The position numbers were made by a program, and so were the translations under genes. From NCBI GenBank assembly GCA_016781085.1, contig JADDQZ010000028.1, positions 27,112 through 62,747 of the forward strand: DNA of 35,636 nt. The letters run 5' to 3'. This document shows positions 5,499 through 29,797 of this stretch, piece after piece; the stretch's first letter is position 1; every line of letters starts with the position of its first letter. This stretch comes from Actinomycetota bacterium (GTDB lineage Bacteria > Actinomycetota > Thermoleophilia > Solirubrobacterales > Solirubrobacteraceae). Under the pieces are notes generated by a model, which made no database searches, was not told the DNA's origin, and was given only the letters and a program-made list of their open reading frames with translations.

Positions 5499-5852
5499 TC
5501 ACTTGGCTCCCATGGCGATTTGCATGATGCTGGTGCGTGTGGCGGCGATGGTCACCGCCGCTTGGTGCTCGAGCGCGTTGGCCGCGAGCATGGCCGACTC
5601 GGCGTCGACGTCGACGGTGGAGCCGTCGGCGCGAGTCACCACCGCGCCGGCGTCGGTGGCCGGCGTAAAGGTCGTGTGCTCCAGCATCTCGCGGTCACCC
5701 ATGGCGGCCGACAGTGCCCCGTGGAAATCGACGTCGACGCGCTGATAACCGGGGGTGTTGGCGTTCGCCAGATTCGACGAAAGCGCGACTTGGCGCTGGG
5801 AAGCGCCTTGGATGGCGCGTTCGAGGGCGAGTTGAGTGGTGTCGAAAAGCAC
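5499..5852 (-). CDS. flgB: Flagellar basal-body rod protein FlgB
   Basis: FlgB is the rod protein nearest the MS ring. With the GTG at 5852 the product is 117 residues and starts in the usual way (LFDTTQLALERAIQGASQRQ, then the rod signature LSSNLANANTPGY). A Shine-Dalgarno AAAGGA (5861-5866) lies 8 bases upstream of this GTG; the frame stays open for 48 more codons but that stretch is unlike FlgB and contains the predicted promoter region. First gene of the minus-strand rod/MS-ring/export operon, with a sigma-28-like promoter about 75 bases upstream. Confidence 0.94.
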   Translation of the reverse strand: MLFDTTQLALERAIQGASQRQVALSSNLANANTPGYQRVDVDFHGALSAAMGDREMLEHTTFTPATDAGAVVTRADGSTVDVDAESAMLAANALEHQAAVTIAATRTSIMQIAMGAK

Positions 5853-5925
5853 GGGACGGATCCTTTGAAAGCTCGTCCGTCCTTGGACTTTTGACTCCGG
5901 CGGACTTCCTTGTCCGACAGGGACA

Positions 5926-5953
5926 ACATCGGCGGCGCGGGCGCCGCACTTGA
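5926..5953 (-). promoter_or_regulatory. Sigma-28-type promoter for flgB operon
   Basis: On the minus strand TCAA (5950-5953), 16 bases, then GCCGATGT (5926-5933), against the FliA/WhiG consensus TAAA-N15/16-GCCGATAA. The start site would be near 5919, leaving a leader of roughly 65 bases before the flgB GTG. The first six bases of the -10 box are perfect. It lies between the FliT-like gene and flgB. Confidence 0.65.
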
Positions 5954-6005
5954 GGATTGAAGGTGCGTCGGGCGGCGCGCACCTGCGCCAGGGCATGGCT
6001 CGGCT

Positions 6006-6326
6006 TCAGGCGGTGCTGTACACGGACCCGCTGTCGAGCGGACCTCCGCCCTGATATCCCCGCACGGCGCCGCGGCCCCGTCGCAGGGCGGCGAGCTCAT
6101 TGCCGGCGAGCGAGCGCGCCACACGCAGCCGCGCGTCGAGCTGGCGCTGAACCTGCGCGAGCCGCACGAGGACGTCGCGTGCCGGACGGGGCGGGGTCGC
6201 CGGCAACGACGCCGTGGCGCGAATGCGCTCATCCATCGCGGCCGGCAGCTCTTCCCACCGGCCGGCGTCGGCCAGGGCCAGCTCGTGCTCAGCCATGGCC
6301 AACAAGTGCTCGTACGGCGTCCTCAT
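6006..6326 (-). CDS. FliT-like flagellar chaperone (putative)
   Basis: A 106-residue, largely helical, charged protein immediately downstream of fliS. Its opening (MRTPYEHLLAMAEHELALAD then AGRWEEL) resembles small FliT-type export chaperones, which often follow fliS and hold FliD before export; similarity is too weak to be certain. The ATG at 6326 is chosen because the protein then starts at the helical domain, 14 bases after the fliS stop; the frame is open for 20 more codons but these overlap the end of fliS. The C-terminus is Gly/Arg-rich and probably disordered. No strong Shine-Dalgarno site is visible, so translation may depend on fliS. Confidence 0.6.
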   Translation of the reverse strand: MRTPYEHLLAMAEHELALADAGRWEELPAAMDERIRATASLPATPPRPARDVLVRLAQVQRQLDARLRVARSLAGNELAALRRGRGAVRGYQGGGPLDSGSVYSTA

Positions 6327-6340
6327 GCGGGCGAAGGTGA

Positions 6341-6742
6341 TCAGACGGCCGCCGGCTGTGCCGCGCCCGCCGCGATCTGAGCCCAAGATTCGCGCAGCTC
6401 AGCAAGCTGGTCGCGCACCCATTCGATCTTGTGAAAGTCCTGCTCAAACAGGGCTTCTGTGAGCTGGCGCTTGCAGTAGACGTAGATGGAGTGCAAGGAC
6501 ACAGCGATCTCGCCGGCCTCGAGGTTGAGCGTACACAGCAGCTCATCGATGATGTCCTCGCCGCGGCGCATGCGCTCACGGGCCTTGGCCATGTCGCCCT
6601 CACGCATCGCGTAGGCAGCCTGAGTGAGAAAACGGTGGATGCCGTCATAGAGCATCACGACCAAGCGCTCCGGCGGCGCGGTGAGAACGGCCTGCTGCTG
6701 GTACGCGGCGGTAGAAGCAGCGGCGGGGGCGTATGGCGTCAA
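6341..6742 (-). CDS. fliS: Flagellin export chaperone FliS
   Basis: FliS binds flagellin C-termini in the cytoplasm and delivers them for export. The signature is clear: AYQQQAVLTAPPERLVVMLY followed by DGIHRFL, and helices with MREGDMAKARERMRRGEDII. The start is set at a TTG (6742): a Shine-Dalgarno AGGAG (6751-6755) lies 8 bases upstream and the protein then begins TPYAPAAASTAAYQQQ, as other FliS proteins do, giving 133 residues. The GTG at 6790 would add a Pro-rich 16-residue leader and has no good ribosome site. A sigma-28-like promoter sits about 70 bases upstream. Flagellin itself is not in the window. Confidence 0.93.
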   Translation of the reverse strand: MTPYAPAAASTAAYQQQAVLTAPPERLVVMLYDGIHRFLTQAAYAMREGDMAKARERMRRGEDIIDELLCTLNLEAGEIAVSLHSIYVYCKRQLTEALFEQDFHKIEWVRDQLAELRESWAQIAAGAAQPAAV

Positions 6743-6812
6743 TTCGACGTCTCCTGAAGGCTCGACGGCGACCGGGGGAAGCGGCGCCACGTAAAGGGAC
6801 TGGCTTCCTTGG

Positions 6813-6839
6813 TGATCGACCGACTTGCGTCGCGATTGA
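6813..6839 (-). promoter_or_regulatory. Sigma-28-type promoter for fliS
   Basis: Minus strand TCAA (6836-6839), 15 bases, GTCGATCA (6813-6820; six of eight match GCCGATAA). The expected start site is near 6806, giving a leader of about 63 bases up to the TTG of fliS. It lies in the 156-base gap between fliD and fliS. Confidence 0.5.
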
Positions 6840-6898
6840 GCGCGAATCTGCCCTGAGCGAGAGTTCCTCTAAGTACCACCGCGGCGCCCGAGAACCGC

Positions 6899-8257
6899 TT
6901 AGCGGTCGAGGCTTGCGATCTGCGCCCCGAGCCAGCCCTGCTGGGTCTGGGAGCGGTTCAACGCGGTTTCCATCGCCGCGAATTGAGCGCGCAGCCGCTT
7001 TTCCTTGGCGACGATGCGCTCCTCGGTCGTCGTCATCTGCTGCTGCAAGCGCTTGACCCGAGCATCCGAAACTTTCAGCCGCTCGTCGAAAGTCCTGTTC
7101 GGCCCCACCTGGCTGTCGATCTGCGCTTCAAGCTTCTGCGCGAAGCCATCCGCTCCGCCGGTGCCGCTGAACAGCGCCCGGACCTTGGCAGGATCCGACA
7201 GCGCAGCCGTCAGCTTCGCCTCGTCGAGGGAAAGCTTGCCCATCCTGGCGTCTGCGGAGGACGCCCCTCCGCTCCCCTTGCCGGTCGATATACCGACCTC
7301 GAGCAATTCGTTCATCGAGGCGTCAAGCCCGCTTACCTCGTCGCTCATCGTGCGGCGAAGCTGTCCAAGCATCGAGGTGAGGCCGGTGTCACCGAACAAC
7401 TGGCCCTTGGTGGACTCGGACAGGTTGGCGCCGGTGGGCGCTTTCTCGTCGAGCTTGCCGCGCGTCACGCCGACGACGTCGTTGTAGGCGGTGATGAACG
7501 CCTTGACCTTCTCCTTGACCGCCTCCGGATCGACGCCGGCGACGCCGACACTGATGCTCACCGGAGCGCTGGTGACACCCTTCAAAGTGGCCTTGACGCC
7601 CACGACGAGGTTTTCGATCACGTTGGAGGAAGACGTGTTCCAAGTCCCCCCGCCGTCGACCGAGTACTCCGCGTCGGATGCCGCCCGCGACAGCGCGGGA
7701 TCGGCCGTGAGCTGGGTGCTGGTGACGTCGAAGGCGTTCGCGGTGCCGGGCTTGCGCGCCGAGAACACGATCGTGTCGTCGTCGAGCGCGGTGGCGAACA
7801 CGGAGAGCTCGGAATTGCCGTTGATGGAAGCCGCGAGATCGGCCGACGAGGCGTCCGGGTTGATGGTCACCGTCTTGCCGCCGACCGTCAAAGACCCGGA
7901 GACTGATGACTTGGTGTACGTGAAGCCTTCCTGCTCGGCCGCCGCCAGCTTGCGCACCTCCAGCGAGTAGCTGCCGGCCGGAGCCATCCCGGTCAGCGAC
8001 ACGCCCACACGTGCGGGGTCGGTTGAGTCGATCGTCTGCTTGTTCGCCCACAGCCCGGGCGAGCGCAGGTCCTGGGCGGCCGTCTTGAGCGCCTTGAGCT
8101 TCGATTGGACGTCCTTGAGGCCGGCCTGCTCGGCTTGTATGCCCCGCTGCTGTTTCTGAAAGCGGGTGATGCTCTGGCGCTCGAGCGCCATCAAACGCGT
8201 GACGATGCCGTCGGTGTCCACACCCGACGCCAATCCGCTGAGACCAATCCCGGCCAT
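6899..8257 (-). CDS. fliD: Flagellar filament cap protein FliD
   Basis: FliD caps the growing filament and folds flagellin subunits into place. The 452-residue protein starts with the typical GLSGLASGVDTDGIVTRLMA signature, has a coiled-coil segment (RFQKQQRGIQAEQAGLKDVQ), an insertion-rich outer region, and a C-terminal coiled coil rich in Gln/Arg (DARVKRLQQQMTTTEERIVA) ending in the FliD-C pattern (QFAAMETALNRSQTQQGWLG). Length is on the short side of normal. The ATG at 8257 is two bases after the flaG stop, so it is co-transcribed with flaG. Confidence 0.95.
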   Translation of the reverse strand: MAGIGLSGLASGVDTDGIVTRLMALERQSITRFQKQQRGIQAEQAGLKDVQSKLKALKTAAQDLRSPGLWANKQTIDSTDPARVGVSLTGMAPAGSYSLEVRKLAAAEQEGFTYTKSSVSGSLTVGGKTVTINPDASSADLAASINGNSELSVFATALDDDTIVFSARKPGTANAFDVTSTQLTADPALSRAASDAEYSVDGGGTWNTSSSNVIENLVVGVKATLKGVTSAPVSISVGVAGVDPEAVKEKVKAFITAYNDVVGVTRGKLDEKAPTGANLSESTKGQLFGDTGLTSMLGQLRRTMSDEVSGLDASMNELLEVGISTGKGSGGASSADARMGKLSLDEAKLTAALSDPAKVRALFSGTGGADGFAQKLEAQIDSQVGPNRTFDERLKVSDARVKRLQQQMTTTEERIVAKEKRLRAQFAAMETALNRSQTQQGWLGAQIASLDR

Positions 8258-8259
8258 GG

Positions 8260-8634
8260 CTAAAGCGCTCCGTTCTCGGTCAAGACCTGCAGCGCCTTAG
8301 AGGGCGGGATGGTCCGCAGGACCGTGCCCTCCAAGTCACGCACCTGGATGATCACGCGCCCCGACCCCTTGTCGAGCTCGAAGTGCAGCTCGCGGTCCTG
8401 TTCGGCGAGCTTCTCAGCCGATCCGGCGGCCGCACTGACGGCGGCGAGGGCGTCAGGAGGAACGGTTGCGGGGATCGCCAGCTCGACGCTGTCGACGGCG
8501 AGCCGACTTGGATGGAGCGAAGAGGACTCGGCCGGCGCCAAGGGGCCCGGGGGCACGTAGCCGCGGGCGGGCGGCGCAATCGCCGGCCGGTGCGTCGTGG
8601 CGAAGAAGCCGAGGTCATTGAACTCAGAGCCCAT
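8260..8634 (-). CDS. flaG: FlaG family flagellar protein
   Basis: Small protein that precedes fliD in many bacteria and influences filament length; exact role unsettled. The C-terminal part carries the FlaG pattern: LHFELDKGSGRVIIQVRDLE then GTVLRTIPPSKAL. The N-terminal 50 residues are Pro/Ala-rich. The start is set at ATG 8634 (124 residues) because a sigma-28-like -10 box ends 8 bases before it, which would make the message leaderless. A GTG at 8655 with AAAGG 8 bases upstream is the alternative start (131 residues); it would lie inside the promoter. No Shine-Dalgarno precedes 8634. Confidence 0.82.
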   Translation of the reverse strand: MGSEFNDLGFFATTHRPAIAPPARGYVPPGPLAPAESSSLHPSRLAVDSVELAIPATVPPDALAAVSAAAGSAEKLAEQDRELHFELDKGSGRVIIQVRDLEGTVLRTIPPSKALQVLTENGAL

Positions 8635-8642
8635 TTGTCCGG

Positions 8643-8669
8643 TGTTCGGCGCCACGCCGACGACCTTTA
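8643..8669 (-). promoter_or_regulatory. Sigma-28-type promoter for flaG-fliD
   Basis: Minus strand TAAA (8666-8669, within TAAAGGTC), 15 bases, GCCGAACA (8643-8650). Eight bases separate the -10 box from the ATG at 8634, so transcription should begin at or within a base or two of the start codon. Same geometry as flgF and flgG in this window. Confidence 0.55.
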
Positions 8670-8685
8670 GGCGGAGGCAACGGGA

Positions 8686-8701
8686 TGGGGTCTAGACCCC
8701 A
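8686..8701. promoter_or_regulatory. 16-bp perfect palindrome upstream of flaG promoter
   Basis: TGGGGTCTAGACCCCA reads the same on both strands. It lies 16 bases past the end of the sigma-factor gene and about 17 bases upstream of the flaG -35 box. It could be an operator for a dimeric regulator or a short hairpin ending the sigma-factor message; there is no T-run, and neither role can be shown from sequence. Confidence 0.35.
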
Positions 8702-8717
8702 CCATCGTCCTCGGTTG

Positions 8718-9530
8718 TCAGCCGACCGCCGAGAACAACATGCCGTCGGTGGCCAGCTCCGACTTGAGGGTCCGCTTGAGCTGCGAGTGGATCTGGCAGA
8801 CGCGGCTCTCGGACACTCCGAGGATCTCACCGATCTCGCGCAGCGTCAGGTTCTTCACGTACAGCAGCACTGCGACTTCTCGCTCACGCTGCGGCAGCTT
8901 CTCAAAGGCGCGCCGGAACTTCTCCTTGCCCTCGGTGACCGACGCGGCCTGCTCGGGATCGAGGCGGGGATCAGAGGAGGCGAGCGTGTCCATGCGCTCG
9001 ACGGTCGTCTCGTCGTCGGAGATCACCAGCGTGTTGAGCGAGGTGACGTCGGAAACCGAGATGTCGTCCTGGCGGCGGCGCAGGTCTTCGACCGAGATGG
9101 CAAGCGCATCGGCGAGCTCTTCCCGCGTGGGACGGCGGCCGTGCAGGCCGCTGAACTGCTCGCGAGCCCGCGTGATGTCACGTTCCCAGCGCCGTAGCGA
9201 ACGCGGAGCCCAGTCCTGGCGGCGAAGCTCGTCGAGAACGGCGCCGTGGATGCGCGTCCAAGCGAACTGTTCGAGCGTGGCGCCCTTTTCGGGGTCGTAG
9301 CGCTCGATCGAGGCGATCAGAGCCTCGAGTCCGCATGAGATGAAGTCCTCGACCTCACAGCGCGCCGGCAATTCGCGCACCTTCTTGAAGACGATGTACT
9401 TGACGAGCGGCGCATAGGTCATGACGAGCCGGTTGCGCAGCTTGATGTCGCCCGTGCGCTTGTACTCGCGCCAAAGGCGGAGAGACTCTTCGGAAGAGAT
9501 CCGCCGCCGGCTCTCGGTCGGGGTCTTCAT
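8718..9530 (-). CDS. fliA: FliA/WhiG-family RNA polymerase sigma factor
   Basis: Group 3 sigma factor expected to read the sigma-28-type promoters seen around it. The 270-residue product has region 2 (YAPLVKYIVFKKVRELPARC, VEDFISCGLEALIASIERYD, FAWTRIHGAVLDELRRQDW), region 3 (RRPTREELADALAISVEDLR) and a helix-turn-helix region 4 (LTLREIGEILGVSESRVCQI). ATG 9530 is chosen: the sequence before it does not match sigma factors, and AAGGAG (9544-9549) lies upstream, although 13 bases away, longer than usual. Its anti-sigma partner FlgM is not visible nearby. FliA and WhiG cannot be told apart by sequence alone, but the flagellar setting favours FliA. Confidence 0.93.
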   Translation of the reverse strand: MKTPTESRRRISSEESLRLWREYKRTGDIKLRNRLVMTYAPLVKYIVFKKVRELPARCEVEDFISCGLEALIASIERYDPEKGATLEQFAWTRIHGAVLDELRRQDWAPRSLRRWERDITRAREQFSGLHGRRPTREELADALAISVEDLRRRQDDISVSDVTSLNTLVISDDETTVERMDTLASSDPRLDPEQAASVTEGKEKFRRAFEKLPQREREVAVLLYVKNLTLREIGEILGVSESRVCQIHSQLKRTLKSELATDGMLFSAVG

Positions 9531-9607
9531 GAGGTTCGGGCTGCTCCTTGGGGGAAGATGTCGAACTGCTGACCTGGCTGTTATCGACAGCTCACCGGGC
9601 GACCACA

Positions 9608-9886
9608 TCACCTGTTTGGGGTATTCGCCTTCCCGTCGAGCTCGTAAGCCCAGGCCAGAACACGCGCCACGGCGATCCACAACTCCTCCGGAACCTCCTG
9701 CCCGAGCGCCAAGGAAGCCAGTGTTTCGGCAAGGTCGGCGTCCTCATGAACCGGCACTCCCGCTGCGCGCGCGTGCGTGAGGATCGACTCGGCCACGTGC
9801 CCCCGGCCGGCCGCGATCACCTGCGGAGCGCCCGTGCCGGTGTAGCGCAGGGCGGCGGCGCGATTGGGGCGCGGAGCGTCAGGCAT
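9608..9886 (-). CDS. Stand-alone FlhB C-terminal-like protein (FhlB type)
   Basis: A 92-residue protein equivalent to the cytoplasmic domain of FlhB/YscU export switch proteins without the membrane part. It follows the family pattern: AALRYTGTGAPQVIAAGRGH, VPVHEDADLAETLASLALGQ, then EVPEELWIAVARVLAWAY. The NPTH autocleavage motif is absent, as in other free-standing FlhB-C homologues (FhlB/YlqH). Such proteins can substitute for or modulate FlhB-C during substrate switching. The ATG at 9886 overlaps the upstream FliK-like gene by 8 bases, so the two are probably translated together; FliK is the partner of FlhB-C in hook-length control, which fits. Confidence 0.82.
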   Translation of the reverse strand: MPDAPRPNRAAALRYTGTGAPQVIAAGRGHVAESILTHARAAGVPVHEDADLAETLASLALGQEVPEELWIAVARVLAWAYELDGKANTPNR

Positions 9887-10454
9887 AGAGATCCAACGGC
9901 TCACGGCGCGGCTTTATGGAAACCGACGCGCGCCCGCCGACCTGCTGCTCGAGGGCGTCTTTGAGCTCGGGCGCCGCCGTGGACGCGAGCTCAAGCGCCT
10001 GGCCCGGGGGTGTCTCGACTTCGACCGAGACCCCGCTTGTTCCCACGTCGACCCGCAGATCCAGCCGGCCGAGCGCCGCCGAGACAAAAGACAACGTCAC
10101 ACCGGCGCTGCCCTCGTCGCTGCCGCGATTGCGGCGCGGCGGCTCACCGACCGCGACATGCGGGGGTGGCGGTGCAGGAGCGGCGCCCACCACACCGGGA
10201 TCCACAACAGCCGGCGGCTCCATCCGCATGGTGACGCGCTCGGCCGTCACTTCCGTAACTCTGAGCCGAAGCGTGTCGCCGGCGGCGACCTCGTCGGGAA
10301 GCTGGGCGGTGAGCGGCACGCCCGCGAGTACGAGCACACCGTGCTGCTCGGCCCGAGCGGCCACGCGGGCCACCAGGCTGGCGCCGGGACGCAACGTGAG
10401 CTCCGGGAGCTGCGTGCGCAGCAGTAGCGCGTCGACGGCAATCGGATCGATCAC
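9879..10454 (-). CDS. FliK-like hook-length control protein (short form)
   Basis: A 191-residue protein. The N-terminal half (LRPGASLVARVAARAEQHGV, LAGVPLTAQLPDEVAAGDTL) looks like the small beta domain found in actinobacterial and clostridial FliK-type proteins; the C-terminal half (LGRLDLRVDVGTSGVSVEVE then ELKDALEQQVGG) resembles the Flg_hook domain of FliK. A Pro/Ala-rich linker (about residues 90-115) joins them. Full FliK proteins are usually 350-600 residues with a long ruler region; here the ruler is almost missing. Start is a GTG at 10454; no clear Shine-Dalgarno. It diverges from flgF with only a short shared intergenic region. Confidence 0.62.
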   Translation of the reverse strand: MIDPIAVDALLLRTQLPELTLRPGASLVARVAARAEQHGVLVLAGVPLTAQLPDEVAAGDTLRLRVTEVTAERVTMRMEPPAVVDPGVVGAAPAPPPPHVAVGEPPRRNRGSDEGSAGVTLSFVSAALGRLDLRVDVGTSGVSVEVETPPGQALELASTAAPELKDALEQQVGGRASVSIKPRREPLDLYA

Positions 10455-10463
10455 AAGTCACAT

Positions 10464-10490
10464 TCAAGCGCCCGGCCGGGCATCCGATGA
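10464..10490 (+). promoter_or_regulatory. Sigma-28-type promoter for flgF
   Basis: TCAA (10464-10467), 15 bases, TCCGATGA (10483-10490; six of eight match GCCGATAA). The -10 box ends 8 bases before the ATG at 10499, so the message would be leaderless. It overlaps the upstream side of the divergent FliK-like gene. Confidence 0.55.
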
Positions 10491-10498
10491 TTTGGCCA

Positions 10499-11182
10499 AT
10501 GGACCGCGGTCTCTACATCGCAGCTTCGGGGATGCTCACGGAGCAGCTCCGTCAAGAGCAAATCGCCAACGATCTCGCCAACGCCTCCACCCCGGGCTAC
10601 AAGGCCGACCGCACGGCACAGCAATCTTTCGGGCAGCTTCTGCTCGCCAACAGCGCGACGGGCGCGCTTGTCGGCGAGGGCGGAATCGGCGTACGCGTGT
10701 CGGACATCGTCACCGACTTCACGCCGCAGCCGGCCCGCGACACCGGGGAACCGCTCGACTTCGCCATCGTCGGCGAGGGCTTCTTCACTGTGCAAACGAA
10801 CCGCGGCATTCGCTACACCCGCAACGGCCAGTTCACCGTGGCACCGCAGGGCACGCTGGCCACCGCCCAAGGCAATCAGGTCCTCGGACGCAACGGTCAG
10901 CCGATCCAGGTCGCCGGCGGTCGCGTCGATCCGGCGCAGATCGGGATCGCCATGCTGCGCAACCCGCGCAAAGAAGGCGAGAACCTCGTCACGGGCGCGC
11001 CCGGCGCGCCCGGCCAGGCGGGACAGGTTCGGACGGGCGCGCTTGAGGGCTCGGGCGCCGACGCGGCGCGGGCGATGGTGGACATGATCGCTTCGATGCG
11101 TGCCTTCGAGGCCGGCCAGCGCGTGTTGACGACTATCGACGCGACGCTCGACAAAGCCGCTAATCGCGTCGGCTCGCTCTAG
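10499..11182 (+). CDS. flgF: Flagellar basal-body rod protein FlgF
   Basis: Distal/proximal rod protein of the FlgF/FlgG family (B. subtilis FlhO type). The 227-residue product has the N-terminal signature DRGLYIAASGMLTEQLRQEQ, IANDLANASTPGYK, the conserved DFAIVGEGFFTV segment, and the C-terminal helix AMVDMIASMRAFEAGQRVLT. ATG 10499 is preferred over the in-frame ATG at 10487 because rod proteins begin close to this point and because the predicted -10 box would overlap 10487. The next gene, flgG, is its paralogue; this one lacks the longer FlgG insert and is assigned flgF by gene order. Confidence 0.9.
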   Translation: MDRGLYIAASGMLTEQLRQEQIANDLANASTPGYKADRTAQQSFGQLLLANSATGALVGEGGIGVRVSDIVTDFTPQPARDTGEPLDFAIVGEGFFTVQTNRGIRYTRNGQFTVAPQGTLATAQGNQVLGRNGQPIQVAGGRVDPAQIGIAMLRNPRKEGENLVTGAPGAPGQAGQVRTGALEGSGADAARAMVDMIASMRAFEAGQRVLTTIDATLDKAANRVGSL

Positions 11183-11230
11183 GGCTACGGCCTAGCGACG
11201 CGGACGGCGTCCAGCAACTCTCGGCAACCC

Positions 11231-11258
11231 TCAAGTCCCCGCCCGCAAAAGCCGACAA
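11231..11258 (+). promoter_or_regulatory. Sigma-28-type promoter for flgG
   Basis: TCAA (11231-11234, in TCAAGTCC), 16 bases, GCCGACAA (11251-11258; seven of eight match). The ATG of flgG lies 9 bases after the -10 box with no Shine-Dalgarno between, so the message is predicted to be leaderless or to have a leader of only a few bases. Best -10 match in the window. Confidence 0.7.
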
Positions 11259-11267
11259 AACCTGTAC

Positions 11268-12008
11268 ATGCTGGAGGGACTCAATACCGCCGCCGCTGGT
11301 ATGGCCGCACAACGGCAGAGGCTCGATGCCATTGCCAACGACTTGGCCAACGCGAACACGACCGGCTACAAGCACGTCCGGGTCGGGTTCCGCGATCTCG
11401 TGTACTCACAAGCGGGTCGCCCCGGCGCCGACGGCGTGCGGACAGGCGCCGGCAGCGCCGCGGTCTTCGCGGGCCGCTCCATGGCCCAAGGCAGCCTCCA
11501 GCGCACCGACCGCCCGCTCGACGTCGCTCTGCAGGGCGAAGGTTTCCTGCGCGTCACGATGCCCGACGGGCGTGACGCCCTCACCCGCGACGGCTCCTTG
11601 CACGTCAACGGCAACGGCGTCCTGACGACCAGCACGGGCAGCGTGGTCACTCCGCGCATCACCTTTCCCCCCGGCACCGGCGAGAAGGACATCGAGATCG
11701 GCGGCGACGGCGCGATTTCGGTGCGCGGCCAGCGCGTCGGCGAACTGCAGATGCTCACCGTGCGCTCGCCCGAGCGGATGGATCCGGTCGGCGACAACGC
11801 TTTCGTTCCCACCGCCCAGTCGGGCGCCGTGGTCGCCGCTCCGCGGGCCACCACGCTCGCTCAGGGCGCGCTGGAGGCTTCCAACGTCGACATGTCGGAA
11901 GCGATGGTCAGCATGATCGAGGCTCAGCGCTCCTTCGAGCTCGCGTCCAAGGCGATCAACACCGCCGACCAGATGATGGAAATCGCCAACGGGATCAAGC
12001 GCGGATGA
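11268..12008 (+). CDS. flgG: Flagellar basal-body rod protein FlgG
   Basis: Distal rod protein. The 246-residue product carries MLEGLNTAAAGMAAQRQRLD, IANDLANANTTGYKHVRVGF, the core PLDVALQGEGFLRV and the C-terminal helix SMIEAQRSFELASKAINTAD characteristic of FlgG (B. subtilis FlhP). Length is a little short of the usual ~260. It has its own sigma-28-like promoter even though flgF lies only 85 bases upstream on the same strand. Its stop overlaps flgJ by four bases (ATGA). Confidence 0.95.
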   Translation: MLEGLNTAAAGMAAQRQRLDAIANDLANANTTGYKHVRVGFRDLVYSQAGRPGADGVRTGAGSAAVFAGRSMAQGSLQRTDRPLDVALQGEGFLRVTMPDGRDALTRDGSLHVNGNGVLTTSTGSVVTPRITFPPGTGEKDIEIGGDGAISVRGQRVGELQMLTVRSPERMDPVGDNAFVPTAQSGAVVAAPRATTLAQGALEASNVDMSEAMVSMIEAQRSFELASKAINTADQMMEIANGIKRG

Positions 12009-12283
12009 ACCCTCTGTCCTCGCTTCCGCCCGTTCCGGAGAGCGCGCTACCCCGCTCGGTGCGTCAGGGCACGCCCGAAGACCGAAAGGCCTATCAGGCC
12101 GCGCTCGGCTTCGAGCGCGTGATGGTCGAGCAGATGCTCAAGACGATGACTTCCAGCGGCCCGCTGCACGAAGGCCCGCAGGCGCCGGCCATCCAAGGCG
12201 CTTTCGCCGACTCGCTGCTGATGGCGGGAGGCCTTGGTCTCGCCGCCCACCTGCATCCGCAGATCCGGGAGTCGATGCGATGA
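12005..12283 (+). CDS. flgJ: FlgJ-type rod-binding protein (N-terminal domain only)
   Basis: A 92-residue protein with the FlgJ rod-binding pattern: AALGFERVMVEQMLKTMTSS followed by AIQGAFADSLLMAGGLGLAA. It matches the N-terminal rod-scaffold/cap domain of proteobacterial FlgJ; the muramidase domain is absent, so wall opening for the rod must be done by another enzyme. It overlaps flgG and flgN by four bases each (ATGA at both ends). Confidence 0.85.
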   Translation: MNPLSSLPPVPESALPRSVRQGTPEDRKAYQAALGFERVMVEQMLKTMTSSGPLHEGPQAPAIQGAFADSLLMAGGLGLAAHLHPQIRESMR

Positions 12284-15121: not shown

Positions 15122-15161
15122 GCCGATGAGTAATTCCGAAGTGCGATCCCCCAGGAGCGAG

Positions 15162-15608
15162 ATGTCCACCATGGTCCAGCACGAGAGCACCCGCTTCGGC
15201 TTGCTCGAAGTCGATGAGAATGCTGTCCTCGAGTTTCCGGCCGGTCTCATCGGCCTGCCGAGCACTCGCTGGACCCTGGTGACCGTCGATCCCGACTCCG
15301 TCTTCCTGTGGTTGCAGTCGCTCGAAGACCCAGCGCTGGCGCTGCCGGTCACCAACCCGTGGCTGTTCTTTCCCGACTTCTCGGTCGAGCTGCCCAACAG
15401 CGACGTAGAGCGCGTCGGCACCGACGATCCTTCTCAGGTACAGGTGCTGGTGACGGTTCGCGCCTCGAGCGAGAAGTCGGAGATGTCAGCGAACCTGCGC
15501 GCCCCGATTGTCATCTACGGCGGACGCGGTCACCAGATCATCAGCGAGGACAAAGACGCGCCCGTGCGCGCGCCGCTGTTTCCCCAGTTGGCCGCAGAAG
15601 CGGCCTGA
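15162..15608 (+). CDS. fliW: Flagellar assembly factor FliW
   Basis: FliW binds CsrA or flagellin and so ties flagellin translation to its export. The conserved start of the domain is TRFGLLEVDENAVLEFPAGL followed by IGLPSTRW, with the later blocks VTNPWLFFPDF and NLRAPIVIYGGRG. The ATG at 15162 (148 residues) follows AGGAG (15153-15157) by only four bases; an earlier ATG at 15126 (160 residues) lies four bases after flgL but has no ribosome site, and ATG 15171 is also possible. Next gene is csrA, its known antagonist partner. Confidence 0.92.
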   Translation: MSTMVQHESTRFGLLEVDENAVLEFPAGLIGLPSTRWTLVTVDPDSVFLWLQSLEDPALALPVTNPWLFFPDFSVELPNSDVERVGTDDPSQVQVLVTVRASSEKSEMSANLRAPIVIYGGRGHQIISEDKDAPVRAPLFPQLAAEAA

Positions 15609-15655
15609 CACTCATCTCGTAGCACCCGGACGACCATTCCAAGGAGGAAGGCACC

Positions 15656-15886
15656 GTGCTCATCATCACCCGTAAAGCCGGCGAGAAGATCATGTTCGGC
15701 GACGACGTCGTCGTCGAGATCATGGAAGTCGTCGGCAACCAAGTCCGCGTAGGCATCCAGGCGCCGCGCTCGGTCCGCGTCTACCGCGAAGAGCTGTGGG
15801 AAGCGGTCAAGCGCGAGAACCTCGCCGCCGTCGGGGCGGCTCCCGCGGACCTGCCCGAACCTAGCCGCGCGCCTAGCGTCACCTGA
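15656..15886 (+). CDS. csrA: Carbon storage/translational regulator CsrA
   Basis: CsrA is a small dimeric RNA-binding protein that blocks translation at GGA-containing leaders; in flagellated Gram-positives its main target is flagellin mRNA and FliW is its antagonist. The 76-residue protein shows LIITRKAGEKIMFGDDVVVE and IQAPRSVRVYREELWEAV, including the basic strand and the arginine before EEL needed for RNA binding. The last ~18 residues are a Pro/Ala-rich tail. GTG start with a very strong Shine-Dalgarno AAGGAGG (15641-15647) eight bases upstream. Last gene of the flgF/flgG operon. Confidence 0.96.
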   Translation: MLIITRKAGEKIMFGDDVVVEIMEVVGNQVRVGIQAPRSVRVYREELWEAVKRENLAAVGAAPADLPEPSRAPSVT

Positions 15887-19592: not shown

Positions 19593-20579
19593 TCAAGCGT
19601 GCGCGGCGCGCTCGCGGCGGTGACGCTCCAGCGCGTAGTTCAACAGGCGGTCGCACAGCTGCGGGAAAGGCAGGCCGGTGGCGTCCCACAGCTTCGGATA
19701 CACACTTGTAAGGGTGAAGCCGGGCATGGTGTTGAGCTCGTTGACGAGCACTGAGTCGCCTTCGACGAAGAAGTCGACGCGGCCCAAACCAGCGCAGCCC
19801 ACGCGCGCGAACGTCTCTGCCGCCAGGCGCCGTATCTCCGCGGCTGCCTTCTCCGACACGCGCGCCGGGACCACGAGCTCCATCGCTCCGGGCGTGTACT
19901 TGGCCTCGTAGTCGTACCAATCGGCGCCGGAAAGCTTGATCTCCCCGGGAAGGGAGACTTCGGGACAGTCGAGCCCCAGCACGGAGCATTCGACTTCTGA
20001 CCCCGTCGAAGCGGCTTCCACGATCGCGACCACGTCGTGAGCGAAAGCAGTATCGAGCGCCTCACGCAGCTGCGAGGTGCGGGTGACCTTGCCGATTCCC
20101 ACGGACGAGCCCGCGCGCGCCGGTTTGACGAACACCGGCCAGCCCAACACGGCCAGCTTGGCGTAGACACGATCGGGGTCGTCGCTGAACTCGTGCCGGC
20201 GCACCGCGGCGTAAGCCACCTGAGGCACGCCCGCCGCCGCAAGCAGATCCTTGAACAAGACCTTGTCCATGCACAGAGCCGAGGCGAGCACGCCTGCTCC
20301 GACGTAGGGAACGTCGAGCAACTCCAGCAGCCCTTGGACTGTTCCGTCCTCGCCGAACGTACCGTGTAGGACGGGAAAGACGACGTCGGCGTCCAGCAAT
20401 CCTTGCCCCGGCGTCAACGCGAGCGGTTCTCCCGCGCTGCACCAGGCCCCATCGCGGTCGAGCGTGATCTCGATCACCTCGTGGCCAGCTGCCGCGATCC
20501 CTTCCGCTACCGCGGCCGCTGACTTCAGCGAGACCTGGTGCTCGGATGAGCGTCCACCGCCAAGAACAACGACGCGCAT
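19593..20579 (-). CDS. ddl: D-alanine--D-alanine ligase
   Basis: Cytosolic ATP-grasp enzyme joining two D-Ala for the peptidoglycan stem peptide. The 328-residue protein has VLGGGRSSEHQVSLKSA at the N-terminus, HGTFGEDGTVQGLLELLDVP, VGAGVLASALCMDK, the ATP loop VKPARAGSSVGIGKV, the Tyr-bearing loop YDYEAKYTPG that favours D-Ala over D-lactate as second substrate, and the metal-binding block VNELNTMPGF. The ATG shares one base with the stop of pknB (TGATG), so it is the last gene of the cell-wall kinase operon. It converges with the kinase gene ending at 19555; a short imperfect hairpin lies between them. Confidence 0.95.
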   Translation of the reverse strand: MRVVVLGGGRSSEHQVSLKSAAAVAEGIAAAGHEVIEITLDRDGAWCSAGEPLALTPGQGLLDADVVFPVLHGTFGEDGTVQGLLELLDVPYVGAGVLASALCMDKVLFKDLLAAAGVPQVAYAAVRRHEFSDDPDRVYAKLAVLGWPVFVKPARAGSSVGIGKVTRTSQLREALDTAFAHDVVAIVEAASTGSEVECSVLGLDCPEVSLPGEIKLSGADWYDYEAKYTPGAMELVVPARVSEKAAAEIRRLAAETFARVGCAGLGRVDFFVEGDSVLVNELNTMPGFTLTSVYPKLWDATGLPFPQLCDRLLNYALERHRRERAAHA

Positions 20580-22621
20580 CAGGGAACGACTCCTTCAGCG
20601 CCGGCACCGCCGGTGCCCTCGCCGCCTGCACCGCCGGTGCCCTCGTCGCCCGCACCACGAGTGGCTTCGTCGCCGGCACCACGAGTGGCTTCGTCGTCGA
20701 GCGGAGGAATCGCGCCCGGAGGATCGGCCGTAGGATCGGGATTGAGCGCAGGATCGAAACGGCCGATCACCAACGTCACTTCCGAGCCCCGGCGGACCTC
20801 TTGACCGGCTTGCGGCGACTGCTGGAGCACCACTCCGTCTTCGTCGGGCGTCTCGACAGCCTCTTCCTCACGGCTCACCGCCAAGCCGGCCTGCCGCAAC
20901 TGCGACATCGCGTCGTCCTCACGCAAACCCTCCAGCGCCGGTACGGGTACGCGCGGGGGCGCCGTGGCGACGACGACCTGCACGGTGTCGCCCTGCTTGG
21001 CTTCGCTGCCGGCGCCCGGAGATTGTTCGAGCACCTGGCCGGCAGCTTCCTCCTCAGTCTCGCGTTCTGACACTTCAGCCGAAAGTCCCGCGTTCTCGAG
21101 CGCACGGACTGCGCTGTCACGGTCCATCGCCGTCACGTCGGGGACGGGGACGGGCCTGACGCCACGCGACACGATCAGAGTCACGGCGCTTCCCTTCCGC
21201 ACTTGTTGTCCTGCGGAGGGGGATGAATCGACAACCGTGCCGGCGGCGACCGTATTCGAGTACTTGCGGCGCTCTCGCGCATCCAACCCCGCTTGGCGCA
21301 ATGCGGTCCTGGCTTGCTCGCGCGGCAAGCCGCTCACGTCGGGAACCGCCACTTCGCCCGGGCCGGTCGAGACCGTTAGGGCGACGATGCCTCCGACGGC
21401 TTCCTCGGTTCCCCCGGCCGGATCCTGCGCGATCACGAGACCGCGCTTGACGTCATCGGAGGCGACTCGCTGGCGCGTCACCTCAAAGCCTCGCCGCTCA
21501 AGCAAGCGCTCGGCGCGGGCGGCATCGCGGCCGACGACGCTGGGAACCTGGGCGCGGTCTTCTTTCAACAGCACGTAGGCCGCCGCCGCGAGCGCGGCCA
21601 GAATCAGCAAAGACGCCACCCACCAGACCCATGAGCGCGATGCTTCCCGCTGCTCTTCGTACGGCTCTTCGGGAAGCAGATAAGCCGTCGCAGGTCGAAC
21701 GACGCCGGTTGGCGGTCCGGCGACACGCGTCGCTGTCGTGGCCGTGGCCGCCGTCACGGCCGCCGCTGGAAGCACGACGGTCGCATCCGTAGCGGGGGGC
21801 TCACTGACCGCACCGCCTTGCAACGCAGCGATGAACTGTTCCGCGTCGCTGAAACGCTGCGAGGGATCCTTGGCGAGCGCGCGCAGGACGACGGCGTCGA
21901 GCTCCGGGGACACCGCCGGGTTCAGCGACGAAGGCACCGGCGCAGGCTCGGACACGTGCTTGAGGGCAATGGTCACGGGCGACTCGCCGTCGAACGGCAT
22001 CCGGCCGGTGAGCAGCTCGAAAAGCATCACACCGATGGAATAGAGATCCGAGGCGGGCGTCACGTGCTGGCCCTGGGCCTGCTCGGGTGAGAGGTACTGC
22101 GCCGTTCCCATGATCGAGCCCGTTTCGGTCATTTCGCTCGCTCCCGCGCGTGCGATGCCGAAGTCGGTGACCTTGATTCGGCGTTCCTCGTCGAAGATGA
22201 CGTTGTGCGGCTTGAAGTCGCGGTGCACGAGGCCGCGCCGGTGCGCGAACCCAGCGGCCTTGAGGACTTCGACAATGATCTCCGCCGCGCGTGCGGGAGC
22301 GAGCGGACCACGGCGGACGAGATCCTTGAGCGTCTCGCCGCGCAAGTACTCCATGGCGATGTAGTAGGTCCCGCCCCACTCGCCACGGTCGTAGACCTGC
22401 ACGACGTTGGGGTGCTGCAAGCCGGCGGCGGCAGAAGCCTCGCGACGAAAGCGCTCGACGAAGTCCGGATCCGCCGCCAAGCGATCATGCAGCAGCTTCA
22501 GTGCAACGGTACGGCCGAGCTCGAGGTCTTCGGCCGACCACACCTCGGCCATACCACCGGCGCCCAGCCGGCCGATCAGCTTGTAGCGGCCATCGATGAC
22601 GGCGTCCTTGGTCAGCTCCAT
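20579..22621 (-). CDS. pknB: PASTA-domain Ser/Thr protein kinase PknB
   Basis: Transmembrane kinase that senses muropeptides/lipid II and controls wall growth. 680 residues: kinase domain 1-270 with IGRLGAGGMAEVW, Lys42, HRDFKPHN (133-140), DFG (153-155) and SPEQ; Ala/Thr-rich juxtamembrane segment; helix about 331-352; four PASTA repeats about 357-421, 424-489, 490-556 and 558-625 (VPSVVGRDAARAERLLERRG, VPDVSGLPREQARTALRQAG and so on). The tail contains a Gly/Glu-rich octapeptide repeated four times. It starts 11 bases after pbpA and shares one base with ddl. The usual second kinase PknA is not between them; the kinase at the head of the operon may take that role. Confidence 0.95.
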   Translation of the reverse strand: MELTKDAVIDGRYKLIGRLGAGGMAEVWSAEDLELGRTVALKLLHDRLAADPDFVERFRREASAAAGLQHPNVVQVYDRGEWGGTYYIAMEYLRGETLKDLVRRGPLAPARAAEIIVEVLKAAGFAHRRGLVHRDFKPHNVIFDEERRIKVTDFGIARAGASEMTETGSIMGTAQYLSPEQAQGQHVTPASDLYSIGVMLFELLTGRMPFDGESPVTIALKHVSEPAPVPSSLNPAVSPELDAVVLRALAKDPSQRFSDAEQFIAALQGGAVSEPPATDATVVLPAAAVTAATATTATRVAGPPTGVVRPATAYLLPEEPYEEQREASRSWVWWVASLLILAALAAAAYVLLKEDRAQVPSVVGRDAARAERLLERRGFEVTRQRVASDDVKRGLVIAQDPAGGTEEAVGGIVALTVSTGPGEVAVPDVSGLPREQARTALRQAGLDARERRKYSNTVAAGTVVDSSPSAGQQVRKGSAVTLIVSRGVRPVPVPDVTAMDRDSAVRALENAGLSAEVSERETEEEAAGQVLEQSPGAGSEAKQGDTVQVVVATAPPRVPVPALEGLREDDAMSQLRQAGLAVSREEEAVETPDEDGVVLQQSPQAGQEVRRGSEVTLVIGRFDPALNPDPTADPPGAIPPLDDEATRGAGDEATRGAGDEGTGGAGGEGTGGAGAEGVVP
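20604..20699. repeat. Four 24-bp tandem repeats in the 3' end of pknB
   Basis: Four head-to-tail copies of a 24-base unit starting GCACC, two of type GCACCGCCGGTGCCCTCG and two of type GCACCACGAGTGGCTTCG, each followed by TCGCC-like bases. They encode an octapeptide repeat (D/G)E(A/G)T(R/G)GAG at the extracellular C-terminus of the kinase. The repeat is in frame, so copy number can change without breaking the gene. Confidence 0.85.
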
Positions 22622-22632
22622 CTCAGCCGGTT

Positions 22633-24054
22633 CTATTCGCCCAGCGCTTCAAAAACGCTCTTGGCTATCGGCGCCGCCATCTCGCCGCCCGTTCCGCCTT
22701 GCACGGCTTCGATCGTCACGGCGACCGCATGCTTCGGCGTGAAGCCGATGAACCACGGCTGATTGAGGTCGCTCTGGTTGAGCTCGGCGGTGCCGGTCTT
22801 GCCTGCCACTTGCACGCCTTGCATTGCGGCGGCCGTGCCTGTTCCCTCTCGCACGACGTTGCGCATCATCTGGGTGAGCTGGCCGGCGCTTTCCTCCGAC
22901 ATCACGCGCTCGACCTCTTCCGGCTCGGCTTTCTCGACCGTGCGTCCGTCGGAGTCGATGACGCGCTCGCGCAGATAGGGCTTCATACGTACACCACCGT
23001 TGGCGACGGTTTGCGCGACAGTCGCCAACTGCAACGCGCTGGCCTCGAGCCGGCCCTGGCCGATCGACATGCGCCCCACGTCTACTTCCTCGTTATCCGG
23101 ATGCAGCAAGCGACCGCCACCGCCGCCCGGGCGCACACCGCTGGGAAGCATCTGGTCGTCGGGATAATCGAGCGGCGGGTCCGCATAGAAGCCGAAACGC
23201 TCCATGTAGTCGTTCATCGTCTCACCGCCGAGCTCCTCCCCGACCGACGCCCAAGCCGTGTTGACGGAGTAGGTGAGCGCCGTGGTCAAGTCGATGCGTC
23301 CCCAGTCCTTGCCACCGAAGTTCTGTAGCGGCACGCCGGAGATTCTCTTGCCGTTTTCCCCGTCGACCATCGAGGTCGGTGTGTACCGGCCGGAATCGAG
23401 CGCCGCGGCGGCCGTCACGACCTTGAAAGTGGAGCCGGGCGGATAGCGGCCTTGGGTGGCGCGATTGATCTGCGGCGACCCGGGGGCTTGGTCGAGGTTG
23501 GCGCCGGCCGGATCGTCGACGGCGTTGGGGTCATAGCTGGGAGCTGAGACCATGGCGCGGATCGCTCCCGTCGACACGTCCATGGCCACCACCGCACCGC
23601 GGCGACCCCCCAGCCCCTGCACCGCGGCCTGTTGCGCAGCGGTGGACAGCGTCGTCTGCATGTCGTTGCCGACGCGGCGCTCGCCGAGAATCGAATCGAC
23701 GGCGCTGACCAACTCGGTGCGCTGGCCGCTCAACGGCTCGTTGTAGTAACGCTCGAGCCCTGAGCGGCCGCGGACCAAGAACGAGTAGCCAATGGGATGG
23801 GCGAACAGCGCGCCGGTCGGATAGCGGCGCTTGAAGCGCTTGCGGTCGAGCTTCTTGCTGCCCGCGAGGACTTGCCCGTCGCTGGTAGTGATGCGCCCGC
23901 GCCGAACTCGCTCTTCCTCGAGCAGCGTGCGGCTGTTGGCCGTGTGGTTGCGCAGCGCCTGCGCCTCGAAGACAGTCCAGCGCGACGTGTAGGCGACGAG
24001 CAGCGCGAACAAGACGATCACCAGCGCGAACAAACGGACGATCGGCGGATTCAC
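22633..24054 (-). CDS. pbpA: Penicillin-binding protein PbpA (class B transpeptidase)
   Basis: Class B PBP that cross-links peptidoglycan with its SEDS partner RodA. With the GTG at 24054, overlapping the rodA stop by four bases, the protein has 473 residues: an N-terminal membrane anchor (about 5-22), a short pedestal domain, and a transpeptidase domain with STFK (Ser208, Lys211), SVN (263-265) and KTG (419-421). The frame is open for 179 codons upstream but that stretch is an arginine-rich shadow of rodA. Order rodA-pbpA-pknB is the actinobacterial arrangement. Confidence 0.95.
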   Translation of the reverse strand: MNPPIVRLFALVIVLFALLVAYTSRWTVFEAQALRNHTANSRTLLEEERVRRGRITTSDGQVLAGSKKLDRKRFKRRYPTGALFAHPIGYSFLVRGRSGLERYYNEPLSGQRTELVSAVDSILGERRVGNDMQTTLSTAAQQAAVQGLGGRRGAVVAMDVSTGAIRAMVSAPSYDPNAVDDPAGANLDQAPGSPQINRATQGRYPPGSTFKVVTAAAALDSGRYTPTSMVDGENGKRISGVPLQNFGGKDWGRIDLTTALTYSVNTAWASVGEELGGETMNDYMERFGFYADPPLDYPDDQMLPSGVRPGGGGGRLLHPDNEEVDVGRMSIGQGRLEASALQLATVAQTVANGGVRMKPYLRERVIDSDGRTVEKAEPEEVERVMSEESAGQLTQMMRNVVREGTGTAAAMQGVQVAGKTGTAELNQSDLNQPWFIGFTPKHAVAVTIEAVQGGTGGEMAAPIAKSVFEALGE

Positions 24055-25358
24055 GGCGTCATCCCGACTGCCGTGCGACGCGCGCGGTCTGAGACGAGCA
24101 GCAGAAGCGCCAGCAGCACGAAGTTCGCGACGATCGACGACCCGCCATAGGACACGAACGGCAAGGTCACGCCGGTGAGCGGGATGAGTTTGATCACGCC
24201 ACCGACGATCACGAACACCTGCAACGCGAAGACCGCGGTCAGGCCGGTGGCCAGCAGCTTGGAAAAGGAGTCCTGCCCGAGCATGGCGATGCGCAACCCG
24301 CGTTCGACGAACAGCAGGTAGACAAGCAGCAGGGCGCATGCTCCGACGAGGCCGAGCTCGTTGACGATGACCGCGTAGATGAAGTCGGTGTCGGGTGTCG
24401 GCAGGATCGACTGCTTCGGTGTTCCCAGCAGCGCCTGCGCAAAGCCCTTGCCGAACAAGCCTCCGTCTGCTTGGGCGAACAACGATTGAGCGAGTTGGTA
24501 GCCGGCTCCCTGAACGACGTCCGGCGCGAAGGGGTCGCGCCAGATCGTCAAGCGTTCCCGGACGTGCGAGACGTTGGTGGCGATGAGCCACGATCCGGCG
24601 AAGAACGCCGTCATGCCCGCCACCACGAACGAGAAGCGGTTGGTGGCGACATAGAGCAGGGCGAGAAACCCGCCGAAGAACATCAGCGACGAACCGAGGT
24701 CGCGGATGAAGATCAGCATCAGCATCGCGAGCCCCCAGATCACGAGCAGGGGTCCGAATTGCTTGAGCGGAGGGATCGTCAGGCCAAGAAAGCGCTTCGC
24801 GCCCTGAACGAGGACTTGACGGTTGTCGCGCAGATAGGCGGCCAGGAAGATCACGATCGCGATCTTCGAGAACTCCGCCGGTTGAAAGGAGATCGGCCCG
24901 ACTTTGACACCAAGGTAGGCGCCGTTGACCTGCTGGCCGATGAACGGCAACCGCGGAGCGGCGAGGAGCAGCAATCCGGCCACGGCGATCGTGTAGCGGT
25001 AGCGCTCGAGCACGCGGAAGTCCTGGCGTAGAAAGAAGATCGTGGCCGTGAAGAGCGCGAGGGCGATCACGAACCAGCGTGCCTGTATGAGCGCCTTGTC
25101 TGGATTGAGCCGGTAGATGACCACAAGCCCGAAGCAGACGAGCACCGCCGCAAGCGGAAACAGGTACGGGTCGGCGTGCGGGAGCAAGAACCGCAGCACC
25201 ACGTGGCCCGTCAGGCAGAGCGCGAGAAACATCGCGCCGTAGGAGAGCGACACGTTCGACAGCTCAGCCGCGCGTTCGATGAAGATTGCCGCGAAGCCGA
25301 ACGAGACGAGCAGCGAGGCCGGAATCAACGCGAGCAGCTCGCGATTGCGCGCGCTCAC
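24051..25358 (-). CDS. rodA: SEDS glycosyltransferase RodA/FtsW
   Basis: Polytopic membrane peptidoglycan polymerase, partner of PbpA. The 435-residue product has about twelve hydrophobic segments and SEDS motifs: VKVGPISFQPAEFSKIAIVI, IRDLGSSLMFFGGFLALLYV, and near the C-terminus PLTGVTLPFVSYGGSSIVAN. The GTG at 25358 overlaps the pstP stop (GTGA) and gives the start SARNRELLALIPASLLVSF; the upstream extension is an arginine-rich shadow. Assigned RodA because of the operon (pstP-rodA-pbpA) although RodA and FtsW are hard to tell apart by sequence. Confidence 0.94.
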   Translation of the reverse strand: MSARNRELLALIPASLLVSFGFAAIFIERAAELSNVSLSYGAMFLALCLTGHVVLRFLLPHADPYLFPLAAVLVCFGLVVIYRLNPDKALIQARWFVIALALFTATIFFLRQDFRVLERYRYTIAVAGLLLLAAPRLPFIGQQVNGAYLGVKVGPISFQPAEFSKIAIVIFLAAYLRDNRQVLVQGAKRFLGLTIPPLKQFGPLLVIWGLAMLMLIFIRDLGSSLMFFGGFLALLYVATNRFSFVVAGMTAFFAGSWLIATNVSHVRERLTIWRDPFAPDVVQGAGYQLAQSLFAQADGGLFGKGFAQALLGTPKQSILPTPDTDFIYAVIVNELGLVGACALLLVYLLFVERGLRIAMLGQDSFSKLLATGLTAVFALQVFVIVGGVIKLIPLTGVTLPFVSYGGSSIVANFVLLALLLLVSDRARRTAVGMTP

Positions 25359-26707: not shown

Positions 26708-26712
26708 CGCGG

Positions 26713-27213
26713 TCAGCGCTCGAAGCGGAATTCGGAGTCGCCGATTTGGATCGCGTCACCCGCGTGCAGGGGCTGGGGCCCGGCCAGAACTTCGCCGTTG
26801 AACCGGGTGCCATTCGTGGATCCAAGGTCTTCGAGCACGATCACATCTCCCTGAGGAACCAGCCGGGCGTGACGCGATGACGCGAACGCGTCTTGTAACC
26901 GGATGTCGGCTTCGTCGCCACGACCGAGGGTCGCTCCTTCGGAAAGATCGTAGGCGTCGCCGCTGCGAAGCCCTGGGGCCGACACCACCCGTAGCCGCGG
27001 CGGCGCCTGCGCCGGAGAAGTCGCGAGACCCGACACCGCAGCCTGCATTCCGGTCGCTTGATCGTAGTCAGAGCCAGGACTCGTGCCCGGACCAGCACGC
27101 CCTCCGACCGCCCGGCCCAAGTCCTTCAGAGCCGAGCGGGCCATCCAGATGAGAAACAGATACAGCACAGCCAGGAACGCGAACTTGAGGATCACCGCCA
27201 TGGGTTCGAGCAT
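26713..27213 (-). CDS. fhaB: FHA-domain membrane protein FhaB (FipA-like)
   Basis: 166 residues: an N-terminal membrane helix (about 8-24, VILKFAFLAVLYLFLIW), a flexible linker, then an FHA domain (about 74-166) with the phosphothreonine-binding residues GRG (97-99), SRH (113-115) and STNG (132-135). In actinobacteria this protein reads phosphothreonines made by PknA/PknB and links them to division/wall proteins. Start ATG 27213; ATG 27201 four codons on is the alternative. Lies three bases after fhaA. Confidence 0.92.
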   Translation of the reverse strand: MLEPMAVILKFAFLAVLYLFLIWMARSALKDLGRAVGGRAGPGTSPGSDYDQATGMQAAVSGLATSPAQAPPRLRVVSAPGLRSGDAYDLSEGATLGRGDEADIRLQDAFASSRHARLVPQGDVIVLEDLGSTNGTRFNGEVLAGPQPLHAGDAIQIGDSEFRFER

Positions 27214-27216
27214 CCG

Positions 27217-27993: not shown

Positions 27994-28027
27994 CCGGTGA
28001 TTTGAGCGTTCCGGTTCACGCCAGGGA

Positions 28028-29770: not shown

Positions 29771-29797
29771 CGGGCCTTCTGCCCAGGGTTCAACGTC

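Follow-up and report, generated by a model that had tools for sequence, protein, structure and literature searches.

Results

Organization of the flagellar locus

The DNA analyzed here (the window) is a 35,636-nt stretch of a 60-kb contig, C60 (GenBank JADDQZ010000028.1), from the 2.3-Mb draft genome of an Actinomycetota bacterium of the order Solirubrobacterales (class Thermoleophilia), and it carries a flagellar gene cluster with promoters of the sigma-28 type. Our subject is the distance between these promoters and the start codons they serve, and its possible bearing on control by the RNA-binding regulator CsrA. The minus strand encodes fliI-fliH-fliG-fliF-fliE-flgC-flgB, a FliT-like open reading frame (ORF), fliS, fliD, flaG, the sigma factor gene, an FlhB C-terminal-like ORF and fliK, the names of the fliI-flgC block being taken from gene order and sequence. 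The plus strand of the region encodes flgF, flgG, flgN, flgK, flgL, fliW and csrA (Table 1). As had been proposed, the locus encodes a FliA/WhiG-family sigma factor, which matches TIGR02479 with 213.5 bits against a cut-off of 189.6. Judged by FlgG, the nearest relatives with a name belong to Solirubrobacter (~60% identity), followed by Patulibacter. The start codons of FlgF and FlgG are fixed by the conserved rod-protein N-terminus, and that of fliS is probably TTG 6742, preceded by AGGAG, rather than GTG 6790.

Table 1. Features of the flagellar locus in window coordinates; L numbers denote loci of relatives
Feature	Position	Strand	Remarks
flgB	5499..5852	-	GTG start, SD AAAGGAT; Pfam PF00460, NCBIfam TIGR01396
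CsrA-type hairpin 2, flgB leader	5875..5888	-	gtccAAGGACggac; kept in relatives, weaker covariation
CsrA-type hairpin 1, flgB leader	5901..5916	-	cggacAAGGAAgtccg; covarying stem in relatives
flgB sigma-28 type promoter (leadered)	5926..5953	-	TCAA-N16-GCCGATGT; box kept 5' of flgB in relatives
fliS	6341..6742	-	probable TTG start after AGGAG (inspection); Pfam PF02561
fliS sigma-28 type promoter (leadered, without CsrA hairpin)	6813..6839	-	TCAA-N15-GTCGATCA
fliD, filament cap	6899..8257	-	directly 3' of flaG; Pfam
flaG, predicted leaderless	8260..8634	-	Pfam PF03646
flaG sigma-28 type promoter	8643..8669	-	TAAA-N15-GCCGAACA; gap 8 to ATG 8634, gap 11 in Solirubrobacter
FliA/WhiG-family sigma factor gene	8718..9530	-	NCBIfam TIGR02479 above cut-off
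flgF sigma-28 type promoter	10464..10490	+	TCAA-N15-TCCGATGA; gap 8 to ATG 10499; 55/55 relatives
flgF, predicted leaderless	10499..11182	+	family searches; spacing conserved in relatives
flgG sigma-28 type promoter	11231..11258	+	TCAA-N16-GCCGACAA; gap 9 to ATG 11268; same layout only in Solirubrobacter
flgG, predicted leaderless	11268..12008	+	structured leader occupies this place in relatives
fliW, CsrA antagonist	15126..15608	+	Pfam PF02623, NCBIfam
csrA	15656..15886	+	GTG start, SD AAGGAGG, R44 kept; NCBIfam TIGR00202 above cut-off
flgG element examples	L127:9797-9859	-
	L106:2651-2714	+
	L185:6163-6223	-
	L190:9225-9284	-	and others

Sigma-28 type promoters and their distance to the start codon

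The original prediction described five sigma-28 sites, 5' of flgB, fliS, flaG, flgF and flgG, and all five lie where it placed them; the -10 box ends 8, 8 and 9 nt 5' of the ATG of flaG, flgF and flgG, with no Shine-Dalgarno sequence (SD). Its -10 sequence was inexact: GCCGATAA has no exact occurrence in the window, every site differing from it at 1-2 positions, and the actual consensus is yTMAAG-N14/15-GyCGA. Nor does the cap gene fliD, listed there among the leaderless genes, have a leaderless promoter of its own; it follows flaG. When the 60-kb contig was scored for the consensus without regard to genes, the top sites were those of flgG, flaG, fliC and flgB, the fliN/fliO intergenic region, a site 3' of fliC, and flgF, with fliS in tenth place. 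Further likely sigma-28 sites are found outside the window, including that of flagellin (C60:10696-10669), which lies ~72 nt from the fliC ATG and is followed by a ribosome site. The locus has the hallmarks of a sigma-28 regulon, namely a sigma gene of the family and a conserved -35 TMAA(G) and -10 GCCGA spaced by 14-16 nt 5' of flagellar operons, and at flaG, flgF and flgG it has the sequence hallmarks of leaderless mRNA, a start codon immediately preceded by the promoter box and the lack of an SD. Transcription would be expected to start 6-8 nt after the -10 box.

The density of the leaderless pattern is 2.0 per Mb in flagellated and 1.2 per Mb in non-flagellated relatives (Mann-Whitney p ~8e-10, kinship ignored). 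Delineation of the regulon across the whole genome by pattern was abandoned as too noisy, with 143 matches in the window's own genome against 65 for a reversed control. In one relative (L135:2054, plus strand, genome G143) a predicted leaderless sigma-28 gene (MSLETTLARISAIEAAL..., gap 8) adjoins flagellin. The window's own genome has beside fliC an ORF with a similar N-terminus (site at C60:9653); its leader is short and contains an SD, and some of the sequence is masked as N.

Conservation of the flgF spacing

A search with FlgG covered 151 related genomes, 57 of them positive, plus class-wide and phylum-wide samples, and the loci were then compared. The distance between the -10 box and the start codon was looked for in these relatives and proved to be conserved for flgF: in 55/55 loci of the order, spread over three families and genomes of 1.6 to 9.3 Mb, TMAA-N14/16-nCCGA or a near variant ends 7-11 nt short of the start codon, which is ATG in 51 loci and GTG in 4, and an SD-like tetramer is absent 5' of flgF in 51/55. 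A box scoring at least 10 of 12 at a gap of 7-11 nt was found for flgF in 55/55, for flgK in 0/53, for fliD in 0/30 and for flgN in 0/19 loci. Conservation in the flgF loci is concentrated in the -35 and -10 columns (1-2.6 bits), most columns of the spacer and of the gap being free to drift. A histogram of gaps to the ATG peaks at 8-10. In neighboring orders (other families of the class, f5 especially) the flgF promoter is of the same type but is ~30-40 nt away from the gene, and an SD is usually present. The placement of the flgF box is not due to chance, and the conserved letters indicate that its spacing is selected. From sigma-28 promoter geometry we infer that the messages would be literally leaderless. 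The original prediction had transcription and translation starting at exactly the same nucleotide; the short gap is upheld, the exactness is not, given the 7-11 nt in relatives, and "leaderless or with a leader of a few nucleotides" is the safer description.

CsrA-type hairpins in the flgB and flagellin leaders

Two hairpins recur in flagellin leaders across the order: one ~35-45 nt before the start, with an ANGGA loop and a stem such as GGCGAC/GUCGCC, and another, AUC-AAGGA-GAU, over the SD. Pairs were counted in windows picked by the ANGGA loop and not by the stem. The first flagellin stem is paired in 86% of cases (72% when shuffled), with a covariation of 0.416 against 0.166 (0/500 shuffles as high) and above slid controls. 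The leaders of flgB likewise contain a pair of hairpins whose loops read ANGGA(N), spaced by 22-28 nt in the majority of leaders, that of the window among them. The covariation of the first is 0.478 against 0.147 shuffled (0/500). With stems of at least 4 bp there are 1.08 hairpins per flgB leader and 1.18 per fliC leader, compared with 0.005-0.007 for shuffled leaders and 0-0.05 when the loop has another sequence. At the same stem length no CsrA-type hairpin was found 5' of flgK, fliD, flgL or flgN, and there was none in 11 fliS leaders. Leadered flgF genes of other orders gave two CsrA-hairpin candidates only, with 3-4 bp stems. A CsrA hairpin model run on the cluster loci found flagellin leaders and one flgB leader (L115), most other inspected matches falling within coding sequence.

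The flagellin leaders have the two GGA hairpin sites, one over the SD, that are typical of hag-type control, and csrA and fliW are both encoded beside the regulon, at 15126-15886; in the flgB leaders both hairpins are 5' of the SD and no overlap with it was seen. The promoters, their gaps, the hairpins and the csrA and fliW genes are plain from the sequence and its conservation. A second csrA gene is found away from the flagellar cluster (G000:C64:14635-14790, minus strand); many members of the order have two copies, and members of other orders have one.

Lineage-specific loss of the flgG leader, and a structured leader element in relatives

The original prediction treated leaderless flaG, flgF and flgG as a feature of the regulon, which applies order-wide to flgF only; for flgG and flaG it is lineage-specific. 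In a tree of FlgF and FlgG, two changes account for leaderless flgF, one for the order and another for a distant genome (L209), and a single change accounts for leaderless flgG, uniting the window and Solirubrobacter with a support of 99. These two have lost the flgG leader, and their promoter directly adjoins the ATG. The flaG gap is 8 in the window and 11 in Solirubrobacter. Judged by these sequences, the short spacing of flgG and flaG is more recent than that of flgF.

Across most genera of the order a separate sigma-28 promoter precedes flgG, and the ~75-115 nt leader that follows it contains a conserved element, GGC-UGGA-CCGC...GCGG-AR-GCC, a UGGA bulge over a CCGC/GCGG stem that is often inside an outer helix. 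The outer stem covaries (0.283 against 0.136 shuffled, 0/500). A covariance model of the element finds it in 23/151 relatives, once per genome and directly before flgG; it recovers loci left out of model building (L112, L120, L143, L217) and also members outside the order. Versions of the element are present in further families, both of the class and of the phylum. The model does not find the element in the window's own genome, in Solirubrobacter genomes, or in the flgG-region loci of other phyla. The element was not recognized as a known riboswitch, and no family of Rfam 15 matched it: none reached the gathering threshold in 119 kb, and for two leaders there was none up to an E-value of 5. 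Tandem copies occur in one genus (L114, L134, L140). Outside the order (L190, L187, L184, L216, L293) a second hairpin, for example GCGCCGAAUGACCGAGGCGC, is present just 3' of the element, and in genome G199 the element and hairpin occur together a second time, at C1:151958, where no clear gene follows.

Neighboring genes

In or beside the flagellar cluster are two ORFs without any Pfam match, one of 92 amino acids at 12005-12283 (plus strand) of the window and one of 768 amino acids at C60:11210-13516 (plus strand), the latter overlapping the end of flhA on the opposite strand. A GGDEF (diguanylate cyclase) gene is within the cluster (C60:21539-22603, plus strand); it is notable in that the c-di-GMP-dependent RsiG reportedly holds WhiG sigma factors in this class. 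At 20579-30000 of the window the usual actinobacterial cell-wall cluster (PASTA kinase, PBP, FtsW/RodA, PP2C phosphatase, FHA proteins) adjoins the flagellar genes.

Discussion

What might decide how each message of one flagellar regulon is translated? We think it probable that a single sigma factor is at work, that the distance from promoter to start codon sets the translational class of each message, and that CsrA gates the class with hairpin-bearing leaders. The FliA/WhiG sigma factor would drive several flagellar operons from one type of promoter, and the distance to the start codon would place each message in its class. In the first class (flgF, flgG and flaG-fliD) the -10 box abuts the ATG, and the message would be leaderless or have a leader of a few nucleotides, and would not need an SD. 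The second class (the flgB operon and flagellin) would have leaders of ~65-70 nt with two ANGGA(N) hairpins, the second of flagellin covering the SD; CsrA, antagonized by FliW, should bind these hairpins and block translation, by analogy with Bacillus subtilis hag, and the first class would escape. Messages of the third class, fliS and others, would have an ordinary SD leader. Such an arrangement suggests that, in these soil actinobacteria, the placement of the promoter is enough to divide flagellar genes between two control classes.

The leaderless genes could instead be quite ordinary, intergenic compaction having brought promoter and start codon together without regulatory meaning in a group where about a fifth of genes are leaderless under any sigma factor. 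The background is indeed high, leaderless genes averaging 19% in Actinobacteria (PMC3160421) and making up 26% of those M. tuberculosis genes that have a primary transcription start site (PMC3898074). The genome of the window is small, leaders without CsrA hairpins exist in fliS and in flgG of relatives, and flgG became leaderless once, where a lineage simply lost the leader. Against this, flgF is leaderless in every genome of the order compared, whatever its size, while flgB and fliC mostly keep leaders with CsrA hairpins, a pattern too regular for drift alone; we regard compaction as a possible explanation, if a doubtful one. It is very unlikely that the boxes are real sigma-28 promoters but that transcription starts further downstream or upstream, the ATGs being translated by way of a leader that arises by read-through from a promoter upstream. 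Such read-through is conceivable for flgG, just downstream of flgF, but flgF is head-to-head with the minus-strand fliK operon and so has no adjacent co-directional upstream gene; moreover, nearly all relatives lack an SD before these ATGs, and the boxes stay at 7-11 nt as their surroundings diverge.

A factor other than CsrA might bind the ANGGA hairpins, in which case the CsrA partition would be wrong and the split into leadered and leaderless messages right. The hairpins were recognized from sequence, and a second CsrA gene is often present in the order, so that either copy might act here. Yet the loop, the closing C-G pair, the twin arrangement, the overlap with the flagellin SD and the neighboring fliW-csrA all match CsrA targets, and we consider another factor unlikely.

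Several observations weigh against the three-class scheme. Leader length is derived from textbook sigma-28 geometry, and with flgF gaps of 7-11 nt some leaders may be 1-5 nt long. The covariation of the second flgB hairpin is modest (15/500 shuffles as high), and some flagellin leaders (e.g. L250, L254, L261) have no recognizable hairpins. The absence of hairpins from the fliS leader means that a leader need not imply CsrA control, and csrA is near-universal in flagellated members of the class, including those with a leadered flgF. That leaderless flgF tracks the presence of csrA was rejected, csrA being found in 53/58 genomes of all kinds. The idea that the regulon is divided into genes that CsrA could and could not bind therefore needs qualification. 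The regulon is split into leaderless and leadered genes, and the leadered flgB and fliC have CsrA-type hairpins, but leaderless does not equate with CsrA-free and leadered with CsrA-bound, since hairpin-free leaders are found on fliS in the window and on flgG in the majority of relatives. A leaderless message has no room for CsrA hairpins, so that the imagined partition exists on paper. Since csrA also accompanies leadered flgF and the fliS leader is hairpin-free, escape from CsrA would be a consequence of leaderlessness rather than its demonstrated reason.

The individual parts of this arrangement (leaderless genes, sigma-28 promoters and CsrA-FliW control) are ordinary and known. The B. subtilis hag leader has two CsrA sites, and the SELEX consensus and hairpin loop of CsrA agree with the motif found here (PMC7652899). 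Like the CsrA-FliW-Hag system, the locus has a flagellin leader with two candidate CsrA sites, one over the SD, and fliW and csrA adjoining late flagellar genes. Unlike hag control, the leader of the flgB (rod/basal body) operon also has the twin hairpin, the same sigma factor also drives putatively leaderless genes, and the CsrA sites are predicted. As in the C. jejuni CsrA-FliW regulon, AAGGA is found in hairpin loops of flagellar leaders. In C. jejuni flaA, flgI and flgH are enriched and flgB (1.6x) is not a target (PMC4894983), unlike here, where the flgB leader carries CsrA-type hairpins. The promoter directly before an ATG or GTG without an SD is reminiscent of leaderless transcripts of mycobacteria and other Actinobacteria, whose sets were mapped genome-wide, whereas ours are predicted. 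The WhiG/FliA of Rubrobacter radiotolerans and Actinoplanes is a sigma factor of the same family with a similar promoter, TAAA/GCCGATAA (PMC8325347). Its mapped targets, unlike those here, are type IV pili and c-di-GMP enzymes, and leader length is not discussed there; Rubrobacter has no flagella.

No conserved leaderless sigma-28 flagellar gene was found reported in the open-licence literature searched, and neither that literature nor the families searched contained the flgB twin hairpin, the flgG element or the combination that is conserved here; with coverage limited to open-licence papers, such absence is weak evidence of novelty. More tentatively, loss of the leader could be viewed as a selected move, in which a sigma-28 promoter slid to the ATG and freed flgF, and later flaG and flgG, from control through leader RNA (the CsrA hairpins on flgB and fliC, the element on flgG). 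One sigma factor would then yield CsrA-gated and ungated parts in a fixed proportion or order, and flagellated Actinomycetota would have, in the flgG element, a cis-regulatory RNA family that is new; this is speculative, and we hold it as a possibility. The unnamed structured leader before flgG marks flagellated relatives, and the flgB operon and flagellin are predicted CsrA targets in Actinomycetota, where none was found reported in the same literature. Cultured Solirubrobacter and Patulibacter strains exist, making these predictions open to direct test. The flagellar regulon of this order would be a conserved case in which promoter placement alone decides whether a gene of the regulon is exposed to an RNA-binding regulator.

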